From assembly GCA_018671895.1 (NCBI GenBank), contig JABHGV010000044.1, positions 1-39,896 of the forward strand: 39,896 nucleotides of DNA, in the 5' to 3' direction. The notes beneath the pieces were generated by a model, which saw nothing but the letters and a program-made list of their open reading frames with translations, had not been told where the DNA came from and did no database searches. The position numbers were made by a program, and so were the translations under genes. The first letter of the stretch is position 1; every line of letters begins with the position of its first letter. The stretch is from Rhodospirillaceae bacterium. GTDB lineage: Bacteria; Pseudomonadota; Alphaproteobacteria; Rhodospirillales; JABHCV01. Below are positions 2,438-14,742 of the stretch, one piece after another.

Positions 2438-4387
<1,950 letters not shown>

Positions 4388-11501: not shown

Positions 11502-12710
11502 ATGAGCGCGGACATTAAAAAAGTCGTACTGGCCTATTCCGGTGGACTGGACACCTCGGTGATCCTGCGCTGGTTGCAAGATACCTATAACTGCGAGGTC
11601 GTCACCTTCACCGCCGATTTAGGGCAAGGCGAAGAGGTCGAACCGGCTCGGGCTAAGGCCGAAATGATGGGCATCAAAGAGATCTTCATCGAGGATCTGC
11701 GCGAAGAGTTCGTGCGCGATTACGTGTTCCCGATGTTCCGGGCCAACGCGCTGTATGAAGGCACCTATTTGCTTGGCACTTCGATCGCCAGACCGTTGAT
11801 CGCCAAACGCCAGATCGAGATCGCCGCCGAAGTCGGTGCCGATGCGGTGTCCCACGGGGCAACCGGCAAGGGCAACGATCAGGTTCGCTTCGAGCTTGGT
11901 TACTATGGCCTGAACCCGGACATCAAAATCATCGCGCCCTGGCGGGAATGGGACTTGGGCTCGCGCACCAAGCTGATCGAGTACGCAAACAAACACCAGA
12001 TTCCGGTGCCCAGCGACAAGCAGGGCGAGCCGCCTTATTCAGCTGACGCAAACCTGTTGCACATTTCATGCGAGGGCAAGGCGCTGGAAGACCCGTGGGT
12101 CGAAGCACCTGAAGACGTCTATACACGGTCGGTCTCGCCAGAGGCCGCACCCGATACGCCGACGGTTATCGAAATAGACTTCAAACACGGCGACCCGGTT
12201 GCCATCAATGGCGAGAAAATGTCACCCGCCACATTACTAACCGCACTGAACAAATACGGCGGCGACAACGGCATCGGCAGGAAGGACATCGTCGAGAACC
12301 GGTTCGTCGGCATGAAGTCGCGCGGCATTTACGAAACGCCCGGCGGCACCATCCTGCTGGAAGCCCGGCGCGGCATGGAAAGCATCACCATGGACCGGGG
12401 CGCGGCGCACCTGAAAGACGAGATGATGCCGCGCTATGCCGAGATGGTTTACAACGGCTTCTGGTTCGCGCCCGAACGCGAGATGATGCAGGCCGCCATC
12501 GATGCCGCGAGCGAACCTGTCACCGGCACGGTGCGCATGAAATTGTACAAGGGTGGCGTCGCCGTCACCGGACGGAAGTCGCCCAACAGCCTGTACGACG
12601 AAGCCATGGTGACGTTCGAGGAAGACACCGTCTATGACCAGCGCGACGCCGAAGGCTTTATCAAGCTGAACGCGCTGCGCTTGCGGATAGGCAAAAGAAG
12701 CCGCAACTAG
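11502..12710 (+). CDS. argG: Argininosuccinate synthase
   Basis: A 402-residue cytosolic enzyme that joins citrulline and aspartate with ATP to form argininosuccinate, the penultimate step of arginine synthesis. The N-terminal PP-loop [10 protein letters not shown] (about 9-18) binds [16 protein letters not shown] and SRTKLIEYA are conserved family stretches, and the length is the normal size. No other arg genes are in the window. The stop is followed 17 bases later by the phosphatase gene, so argG probably leads an operon with the phosphatase and the fructosamine kinase. Confidence 0.97.
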
Positions 12711-12726
12711 ACCGGAGCCACACCTC

Positions 12727-13212
12727 TTGACCACCCCCATCATCAACGTCCTGTTCGTCTGTCTTGGCAACATCTGCCGGTCGCCGACGGGCGAGGGCGT
12801 GTTTCGGGAACTGGTTGAAAAAGAAGGACTGGCCGACAGGTTCCGCATCGATTCCGCTGGCACCGCTGCCTTTCATATCGGCGAGCCGCCGGACGGCCGT
12901 TCGCAAACAGCCGCCATGCGTCGCGGCATTGACCTGAGTAATCAGCGCGCCCGGCGTGTACGCGACGAAGACTTCCGCCGGTTCGATTACATCCTCGCCA
13001 TGGATGTGGAAAACCACACCAACCTGATGGCGGTTTGTCCGCCGGGCGAAGAAGGCCGGGTCCGGCTGTTGCTGGATTTTGCCGAAGGTGCCGAAGGCGA
13101 AAGCGTGCCCGACCCTTATTACAGTCGCGGCAATGGTTTCGAGGTTGTGCTCGACCTGATTGAACTGGCGACCATCGGGCTGCTCGACGACATCCGCACC
13201 AATCATTTTTAA
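12727..13212 (+). CDS. Low-molecular-weight protein tyrosine phosphatase family
   Basis: A 161-residue cytosolic phosphatase. The P-loop CLGNICRS (Cys12 to Arg18) matches C-x5-R, and the general acid Asp129 lies in PDPYY, both required for catalysis. The start is a TTG preceded by a GGAG-type site (no ATG is available before the P-loop). Members act on phosphotyrosine, arginine phosphate or small phosphosugars on proteins. Here it lies between argG and a fructosamine kinase; a mammalian member is known to act as a protein-ribulosamine-5-phosphatase, which makes a role in deglycation a reasonable hypothesis. Confidence 0.9.
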   Translation: MTTPIINVLFVCLGNICRSPTGEGVFRELVEKEGLADRFRIDSAGTAAFHIGEPPDGRSQTAAMRRGIDLSNQRARRVRDEDFRRFDYILAMDVENHTNLMAVCPPGEEGRVRLLLDFAEGAEGESVPDPYYSRGNGFEVVLDLIELATIGLLDDIRTNHF

Positions 13213-13237
13213 TCATTTAATGTATAATCGCCCTGTT

Positions 13238-13360
13238 ATGGGAGAGACCTGCAAAGCCTGTGCGGTTGTTGTCACGCTTGCGGCGCTTGTCGTGGCAACG
13301 CCTGCGGCCGCCAGACAAAAGGCGCGACAGGAAGAGCGCAACGAAGAGGCAGGCTCTTAG
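13238..13360 (+). CDS. Possible tiny exported peptide
   Basis: A 40-residue frame (ATG at 13238; an in-frame ATG at 13220 would add six) with a clear signal-peptide-like core, ACAVVVTLAALVVATPAAA, and a short charged tail rich in R, Q and E. It fills the gap between phosphatase and kinase and ends two bases before the kinase ATG. A TATAAT sits at 13223-13228 just before the ATG; no good ribosome site is seen. It may be real and exported or membrane-bound, or merely an open stretch. Function unknown. Confidence 0.35.
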   Translation: MGETCKACAVVVTLAALVVATPAAARQKARQEERNEEAGS

Positions 13361-13362
13361 GA

Positions 13363-14217
13363 ATGCGCCCGGACATATCCGACGTCATTAGCCGTGTCAC
13401 TGGCTCGGCCCAGGCAAAAACATCGTCGCTCGGCGGTGGCTGTATCGGCGACGTTTACAAGGTGCGTCTTAAAAACGGCGAAACCGTGGTCGCCAAAGTT
13501 GGTGGTGCTGGCAGCGGGCTGGAGCTTGAAGGCCACATGCTCCAATACCTGAAAGAACGGTCGGCCCTGCCGGTGCCCGATGTGCTGTTTGGCGATGATG
13601 ATCTTTTATTGATGACATACGTCGAGTCCGGTGGTGCCCTGAATGCATCCGCGCAACAACACGCCGCCGATCTTCTGGCTGCCCTGCACGACATCACGGC
13701 CCAATCCTATGGTTTTCAATATGACACCGTCATCGGTGGCCTGCACCAACCGAACCCGGAAACACCCCGATGGCTCGATTTCTTTTCTGAACACCGCTTG
13801 GTGTATATGGGCCGCCAGGCACTTGATGCCGGGCGGCTTCCCGGCGACGTCATGGCGCGGCTGGAAAAGCTGGCCGACAGCGTTGGGCGCTGGCTTGAAG
13901 AACCGGCCCAGCCGTCATTGGTCCACGGCGACATGTGGGGCGGCAACGTGCTGGCCGCAAACGGGCGCATCACCGGTTTCATAGACCCTGCCATTTATTT
14001 TGCCGACGCAGAGGTCGAGCTCGCCTTTTCGACCCTGTTTGGAACCTGTGGCGATGATTTCTTTTCGCGCTATGGCGAGCATCGGCCCATCGCACCGGGA
14101 TTTTTCGAAGAGCGCCGCGACCTGTACAACCTGTATCCGCTGCTGGTTCACGTTCGCCTGTTCGGCGGATCGTACGTTGGTTCCGTCAGTGGGATTTTAA
14201 ACAAGTTCGGGTTCTAG
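13363..14217 (+). CDS. Fructosamine kinase family protein
   Basis: A 284-residue protein-kinase-like enzyme of the FN3K family, which phosphorylates ketoamines on glycated lysines so that they fall off, repairing proteins. N-terminal GGGCIGDVYKV and VVAKVGG hold the nucleotide loop and ATP-binding lysine, LVHGDMWGGN (about 186-195, with catalytic Asp190) is the Brenner-type catalytic loop, and FIDPAIYFADAE carries the metal-binding Asp. Bacterial members act mainly on ribulosamines and erythrulosamines. A potential ribosome site (TTAGGA) overlaps the preceding stop. The last 21 bases overlap the convergent thpR gene. Confidence 0.92.
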   Translation: MRPDISDVISRVTGSAQAKTSSLGGGCIGDVYKVRLKNGETVVAKVGGAGSGLELEGHMLQYLKERSALPVPDVLFGDDDLLLMTYVESGGALNASAQQHAADLLAALHDITAQSYGFQYDTVIGGLHQPNPETPRWLDFFSEHRLVYMGRQALDAGRLPGDVMARLEKLADSVGRWLEEPAQPSLVHGDMWGGNVLAANGRITGFIDPAIYFADAEVELAFSTLFGTCGDDFFSRYGEHRPIAPGFFEERRDLYNLYPLLVHVRLFGGSYVGSVSGILNKFGF

Positions 14218-14742
14218 CGCGTACTCTGAGAGCACCTGATAGTGGGCGGGACCATGACCCAGGTGCGAGCGGAACAGCTGGAACGAATCGACCTGAAACG
14301 GCCCGATCTTTAAATCGCCGATGGATTGTGCCCAGTCAGCGATCTCGTGCTCTGGTGTTTTTTTCAGCCGCGCCAATGTCACGTGCGGCGTAAACTTGCG
14401 ACGATCGGCATCCAGTCCGGCACGAACTGAAGCCGACTCGATCTTGTCGTGTAAATGAACAAGCGCCGGTTGCGTCTTGATCCCGGCCCACACGGTATGG
14501 CTCATGTGGCCGCGCCCGAATTGACCGACACCGTTCAGCGTCAGGGAAAATCCCGGCGCGTGAACGCCACCAAGCGCGGTGTCAACGTCGTCCACCGATG
14601 GCCCGTCGAGATCGCCGATAAAGCGCAGGGTGGCATGCAGGTTATCCGGCGTGATCCAGCGTGCGCCCGCAAGGCCGAACGATATTGCCTTCAGTCTGTC
14701 GCGGATTTCTTTGGGCATCTGTATGCCGACAAATAATCGCAT
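14197..14742 (-). CDS. thpR: RNA 2',3'-cyclic phosphodiesterase
   Basis: A 181-residue 2H phosphoesterase (LigT/ThpR). The two active-site motifs are HATL at residue 36 and HVTL at residue 120. The N terminus MRLFVGIQMP is standard for the family. It hydrolyses 2',3'-cyclic phosphate ends of RNA, and was historically described as a 2'-5' RNA ligase. It converges with the fructosamine kinase with a 21-base tail overlap, and is 17 bases downstream of the FIST gene on the same strand, so the two may be cotranscribed. Confidence 0.92.
   Translation of the reverse strand: MRLFVGIQMPKEIRDRLKAISFGLAGARWITPDNLHATLRFIGDLDGPSVDDVDTALGGVHAPGFSLTLNGVGQFGRGHMSHTVWAGIKTQPALVHLHDKIESASVRAGLDADRRKFTPHVTLARLKKTPEHEIADWAQSIGDLKIGPFQVDSFQLFRSHLGHGPAHYQVLSEYALEPELV

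Follow-up and report, generated by a model that had tools for sequence, protein, structure and literature searches.

The locus analysed here raises the question of why a low-molecular-weight phosphatase gene (PTP) should lie immediately upstream of a gene for a fructosamine-3-kinase homologue (FN3K), and of what the small signal-peptide-like frame between the two represents. The window, by which we mean the whole 39,896-nt stretch of DNA analysed, contains the following features in this region.

11502–12710, + strand: argG, argininosuccinate synthase (NCBIfam PRK00509, 638.5 bits, over cut-off)
12727–13212, + strand: PTP, low-molecular-weight protein-tyrosine-phosphatase type, 161 aa (Pfam PF01451 LMWPc, 138 bits)
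13223–13228, + strand: TATAAT, a possible −10 element read from the sequence, 9 bases 5′ of the ATG of the small frame
13238–13360, + strand: small signal-peptide-like frame of 40 codons, between PTP and FN3K
13363–14217, + strand: FN3K, fructosamine-3-kinase homologue, 284 aa (Pfam PF03881 Fructosamin_kin, 177.6 bits)
14197–14742, − strand: thpR, RNA 2′,3′-cyclic phosphodiesterase (NCBIfam TIGR02258, 155.8 bits, over cut-off)

The gap between PTP and FN3K is 150 bases and its sole content is the 40-codon frame; argG ends 16 bases 5′ of PTP, and a FIST-domain gene is next after thpR. The 3′ ends of the convergent thpR and FN3K genes overlap by 21 bases (14197–14217). The data show that PTP and FN3K are both intact, that their catalytic residues are conserved and that the two are kept as a pair with close, in many cases overlapping, spacing; which substrates they use, and in which order they act, we infer. 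The reading that we consider probable is that PTP and FN3K form a two-enzyme protein-repair pair, with the small frame, on balance, a shortened insert.

The predicted PTP product matches the LMWPc profile over nearly its full length and far above the cut-off (E 3.4e-40), and it has the CX5R(S) loop and general-acid Asp of the low-molecular-weight phosphatases (C12, R18, S19 and D129). Cys12, Arg18 and Asp129, which we take to be the catalytic residues, are all present, and together with Ile16 and Ser19 they are invariant in all 97 of the aligned FN3K-linked PTPs (97 of 99 entered the alignment; two were lost to length and stop filters). The first possible start in the mechanical ORF lists is a TTG, as it is for the PTPs of three relatives (L017, L030 and L032) discussed below. 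A further match is to PDB 2cwd, presumably a Thermus protein, with an E-value of 2.8e-32. Human LMPTP-A is said to have been described, by Fortpied in 2007, as a protein ribulosamine-5-phosphatase, and the window PTP belongs to the same phosphatase class, with its Cys, Arg and Asp intact and a DPYY motif present; we propose that it is likewise a protein ribulosamine-5-phosphatase.

The kinase homologue is equally well supported, with a Fructosamin_kin match far above the cut-off of 22.4 bits that covers profile positions 1–284 of 288; the original observation of a phosphatase with intact Cys, Arg and Asp before a fructosamine-3-kinase homologue is borne out for both families. Cys27, Lys45, Glu56, Asp190, Trp192, Asn195 and Asp208 are present in the window FN3K, and in an alignment of 121 of the 125 FN3K homologues described below (the others were lost to length and stop filters) Glu56, His188, Trp192, Asn195 and Asp208 are kept in every kinase, Lys45 and Asp190 in 120, and the P-loop Cys, present in the window FN3K, in 85. 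Matches to 6oid (a plant chloroplastic ribulosamine 3-kinase, which has the P-loop Cys in common with it; E 1.1e-25) and to 3f7w (a putative bacterial ribulosamine 3-kinase; E 1.7e-32) extend over most of the length of the window FN3K, and there is no decisive sequence difference from either. One report gives I25, D217 and W219 as essential residues of human FN3K and lists nine substrate-contact residues (PMC13223202). Mapped from the alignment, the three essential residues are I28, D190 and W192 in the window kinase, which, among the eight contacts compared (all but G152), matches the human I25, D217, W219, F252, H288 and F292. The positions of human N287 and H291 are occupied by V262 and L266, as they are in 114 and 115 of the 121 aligned kinases, respectively, and human FN3K is reported in that paper to stay active with alanine at either position (PMC13223202). 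The substrate contacts are described there as not decisive for ribulosamine versus fructosamine preference (PMC13223202), so that the preference of the window kinase is not settled by its sequence alone; we propose a ribulosamine/erythrulosamine 3-kinase.

The pairing was examined in a set of 125 distinct FN3K loci with flanks of 0.7–3 kb, derived from 138 loci found in order, class and named-genome searches by removal of 13 duplicates (the shorter-flank copy was often the one retained). The set leaves out genomes with an FN3K match whose locus was not retrieved, and its named loci are not a random sample but the best 80 of 144 relatives of the FN3K of the window's family. PTP is the same-strand upstream neighbour in 99 of the 125 loci (including these best 80 of 144 named relatives), three others are at contig ends, and 23 have no PTP in the stretch examined. 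The 99 gaps comprise 42 overlaps, 28 gaps of 0–9 bases, 21 of 10–49 bases and eight of 150 bases or more, 91 therefore being shorter than 50 bases; five of the eight longest belong to the window's family. A gap of exactly −4, an apparent stop/start overlap of the kind that is the usual sign of translational coupling, is present at 33 of the paired loci, with the proviso that FN3K starts were chosen by script and single gaps may therefore err by a codon or more. Magnetovibrio blakemorei (L152), a cultured environmental relative, is an example of the tight form, its gap being 2 bases.

There are several individual variations among these loci. One example is L138, in which a second LMW-PTP-like ORF (2525–2992; 94.9 bits) lies between PTP and FN3K with a 4-base overlap with each neighbour and an Asp at the nucleophile position, and is possibly a dead regulatory paralogue. 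In a second example (L025, 1315–3009), two tandem FN3K matches lie behind a single PTP, and in a third a GC-rich, palindrome-like, non-coding spacer, recognised by eye, is common to L026 (about 1249–1491) and L096 (about 2783–3000) and separates PTP from FN3K. Stop-to-stop frames of 441–768 aa suggested a PTP–FN3K fusion, which was rejected for L008, L011, L012, L021, L029 and L033, where the two genes are in different frames.

A sample of 60 genomes of the order, including the window's own, gives a similar picture. FN3K is over cut-off in 37 of these genomes and clear (80 bits or more) in 36, of which 35 also encode a strong PTP (119 bits or more), compared with 11 of the 24 genomes without a clear FN3K (Fisher p 5e-6, relatedness not corrected). 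One genome with only a 65-bit contig-end FN3K fragment (G006) was counted as FN3K-negative, and the only clear-FN3K genome without a strong PTP (G054) has its FN3K at a contig end. From their coordinates the two genes are adjacent in 33 of the 34 determinable genomes; the other two of the 35 genomes with both are G041, where a contig end cuts the locus, and G056, with the genes on different contigs. In G007, one of the 33, the paired kinase frame is interrupted by an internal stop. In the window genome, which is 98.5% complete, FN3K is matched once and PF01451 twice; the second PF01451 match (62.9 bits) looks ArsC-like and is beside genes that we read, with no family search, as hisD and Maf. 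The pairing exceeds chance and is not restricted to this genome, which answers the concern, raised with the original prediction, that it might be. PTP and FN3K distances are also correlated (r 0.75 over 97 gene pairs, the best of 200 label permutations being 0.22), a result to which we attach no weight because common descent yields the same.

Given its argG neighbour, PTP could also be an enzyme like YwlE that removes phosphate from protein arginine; the two enzymes are of the same superfamily (39.6 bits between the window PTP and YwlE) and argG is directly upstream. However, the window PTP is closer to human-type LMPTP chains (about 105 bits), the P-loop of YwlE carries Thr where all of the aligned PTPs have Ile16, and argG is upstream in only a small part of the set (at least five of the 125 loci, with L093, a duplicate of L032, adding one), such that we regard an arginine phosphatase as highly improbable. 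A link between argG and the pair was likewise rejected, being confined to the window's family and two or so others, and argG is an upstream neighbour outside the function proposed for PTP and FN3K.

The two genes also occur apart, and in the order they do so asymmetrically, FN3K being nearly always accompanied by PTP and PTP often being without FN3K. A strong PTP is kept without FN3K in 11 of the 60 order genomes, where it must serve some other purpose or work by itself, and the phosphatase is not dedicated to FN3K. The asymmetry would be consistent with an earlier or broader function of the phosphatase, FN3K having come to depend on it. In the other direction, once the three contig-end loci are set aside, 23 of the remaining 122 FN3K loci have no PTP within the 0.7–3 kb flanks, and PTP is a neighbour in none of the 30 FN3K loci inspected in other classes of the same phylum, showing that FN3K homologues exist without PTP. 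Those of the other classes are in the same Pfam family, about 27–34% identical to the window FN3K, and are presumably of the E. coli YniA type; across the phylum sample FN3K is over cut-off in 104 of 299 genomes.

By label, the 23 PTP-less loci comprise 12 Chloroflexi/Anaerolineae (we count Promineifilum among the Chloroflexi-labelled genomes), two Myxococcales, one each from Gallionellaceae, Sulfuricellaceae and Bacteroidetes, and six that either come from the order or class of the window or carry the label Rhodospirillaceae or Alphaproteobacteria (L004, L081, L085, L087, L113 and L131). All four genomes to which L004, L081, L085 and L087 belong have a strong PTP elsewhere (136–151 bits), which in G094 (L081) is about 3 kb upstream of FN3K on the same strand. 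Between the two genes of G094 (L216, G094:C4:69900-74400) there is a three-gene TRAP transporter set, recognised by eye and all on one strand, that perhaps serves in ketosamine uptake. The Chloroflexi-labelled kinases (L121–L123, L127, L128, L133, L134, L142, L144, L148, L154 and L159) are 53–60% identical to those of the window's family, and none of the 12, all drawn from the best 80 of 144 relatives, has a PTP in the stretch; it is possible that the kinase alone was laterally transferred.

The genomes with PTP but no FN3K also bear on whether PTP is an ordinary phosphotyrosine phosphatase, active in signalling or capsule control and merely sharing an operon with the kinase. Many tyrosine phosphatases are in the same family, and sirtuin and UDG-family genes are beside PTP in five of the six PTP-only loci read (of the 11 PTP-only genomes). 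However, nothing in the window genome reaches the cut-off of TIGR01007, the BY-kinase family and the one tyrosine-kinase family covered (best 51.7 versus 108.05 bits), the capsule-type Wzb model scores far below its cut-off against the window PTP (57.8 of 243 bits), and the frequency of the pairing with FN3K is hard to ascribe to chance. We therefore consider a purely phosphotyrosine-directed role unlikely and favour the repair pair.

In such a pair, the damage would arise by spontaneous reaction of ribose 5-phosphate (or erythrose 4-phosphate) with the lysines of proteins, yielding ribulosamine 5-phosphate (or the equivalent from erythrose). PTP would remove the terminal phosphate, FN3K would phosphorylate O3 of the ketosamine so exposed, and breakdown of the resulting 3-phosphate would leave free lysine; the small frame would be dispensable for this chemistry. 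Gemayel reportedly described, in 2007, gene pairs of an LMW-PTP and an FN3K homologue, with PTP immediately before FN3K, and proposed a two-step deglycation of ribulosamine 5-phosphate. The window resembles those pairs in having PTP upstream on the same strand and in the chemistry proposed, and it differs in its 150-base spacer with a small exported frame, most of the loci in our set being tight. A later paper, citing Gemayel 2007, assigns ptpA to a putative system that repairs adducts of ribose 5-phosphate (PMC5617981). Ribulosamine repair by such an enzyme pair is therefore already in print and the core idea is not new; the two-step chemistry of the original prediction coincides with it, and the most likely role of the window pair is the repair of ribose-5-phosphate adducts that has been published for pairs of this kind. 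Among the literature matches listed, none apparently describes the PTP–FN3K adjacency or the sirtuin neighbourhood. A mean PF03881 copy number of 0.41 in Calvin-cycle genomes and 0.29 in others, given in a further source, offers a lead only (PMC7895386).

The 40-residue signal-peptide-like frame noted in the original prediction is present as described, and its stop codon is 2 bases 5′ of the FN3K ATG. Two starts further upstream would lengthen the same frame, an ATG at 13220 that is directly before TATAAT (46 residues) and a TTG at 13160 inside PTP (66 residues); the 40-codon form encodes a signal-like stretch and about 15 further residues. A 40-codon frame in a 150-base gap is unremarkable alone, and any significance rests on the relatives. 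Five genomes of the window's family have the locus, and three of the four relatives have an exported-looking, Gln-rich ORF of 124–195 codons in the gap (170 codons in G002, L017; 195 in G003, L030; and 124 in G001, L032); in the fourth (G004, L015) no such exported ORF was seen in a gap of 365 bases. The L032 ORF is 79% identical to that of L030, with an in-frame gap of 71 codons. Between these two, the only pair not too diverged for a test of constraint, dN is 0.13 and dS 0.56 over 124 codons (dN/dS about 0.23), and the corresponding values are 0.08/0.81 for PTP and 0.09/0.59 for FN3K, which marks the exported ORF as coding and under constraint, less tightly so than the genes on either side.

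A structure model of the L030 product has a low-confidence N-terminal helix followed by a 107-residue helix (residues 57–163; mean pLDDT 77, pTM 0.34), and single long helices are often over-confident in such models. The exported ORF has no Pfam family over cut-off, and a profile of the three ORFs matches three of the 60 order genomes, namely the three sources, with no match in the window's genome. The original proposal that the peptide is a component of the cassette does not hold in general, on this count and on that of the gaps of less than 50 bases at most loci, which leave no room for it; the exported peptide looks like a lineage-local insert and a local curiosity. A functional exported peptide in the window, or an envelope role for the longer ORFs that is tied to repair, would agree with the constraint on the L030 and L032 ORFs and with the long helix of the model, but in the window there is just the signal-like stretch with its short tail, the gap of L015 is without such an ORF, and no Pfam family is matched, and we think a function of this type quite unlikely.

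Whether the window frame is related to the longer ORFs is a separate matter. The distance from the ORF stop to the FN3K ATG is 2 bases in the window, 6 in L030, 6 in L032 and 17 in L017. By eye, L030 and L032 have TATACT, 10 bases and an ATG at the corresponding place, and L017 has TATAAT 39 bases 5′ of the ORF start; no full sigma-70 promoter was found in 12600–14300, so that a promoter at the window TATAAT is only a guess. When the window frame is compared with L030, L032 and L017, protein block shuffles reach the observed score in 285, 90 and 141 of 1000 trials, respectively, and DNA shuffles (of single bases rather than dinucleotides) in 2, 0 and 4 of 500. The protein similarity is thus within the shuffled scores, the long-ORF profile misses the window genome, and GC-rich DNA commonly holds short open frames, all of which would be expected of a chance frame in the spacer with no relation to the ORFs of the relatives. 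Set against this are the shared position with the stop adjoining FN3K, the TATA-like box 9 bases from the ATG (10 in L030 and L032, by eye), and the in-frame match at the DNA level around Lys-Ala-Arg-Gln-Glu, and chance, a possibility to be taken seriously, seems to us rather improbable. The 40-codon frame is better read as a shortened relative of a family-specific exported helical ORF inserted between PTP and FN3K, a reading that we favour on balance but that is tentative because the protein-level similarity is within that of shuffles.

Beyond the immediate neighbours, the pair is often accompanied by a characteristic set of genes, for which the counts are lower bounds because flanks are only 0.7–3 kb. 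A sirtuin gene is upstream and on the opposite strand in at least 58 of the 125 loci and a UDG-family gene in at least 45; downstream and opposite, ThpR is present in at least 52 and FIST in at least 27. The side and orientation of each of these genes are constant wherever it is found. The sirtuin copy in L058 (54–1428) scores 338 bits to the Sir2 deacetylase model, over cut-off, and the gene for this deacetylase, in many cases together with one of the UDG family, is divergent upstream of PTP. SIR2 has no match in the window genome. A broader scenario, which in both its parts is speculative and on the whole not probable, starts from an exported long-helical gene that, bringing a −10-like box of its own, would have entered a repair operon with translational coupling in this uncultured family of Rhodospirillales. 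An open frame with its stop abutting the FN3K start would have been kept, and the 40-codon remnant would be a bridging leader through which FN3K is expressed to some extent independently of PTP. In the second part, the pair would lie in a repair island conserved among alphaproteobacteria, with divergent sirtuin and UDG-family genes on its upstream side and a convergent ThpR gene on its downstream side.

Taken as a whole, the original reading is partly supported: the enzymes look intact and their pairing is widespread, but the peptide is not a general part of the cassette and PTP is not dedicated to FN3K. In alphaproteobacteria the genes for LMW-PTP and FN3K homologues tend to be inherited as a pair, in a sample apparently larger than that of the 2007 work, and this makes a stronger case for bacterial repair of ribose-5-phosphate protein damage. 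The asymmetry between genomes with PTP alone and those with FN3K alone points to organisms in which the separate roles of the two enzymes can be tested.
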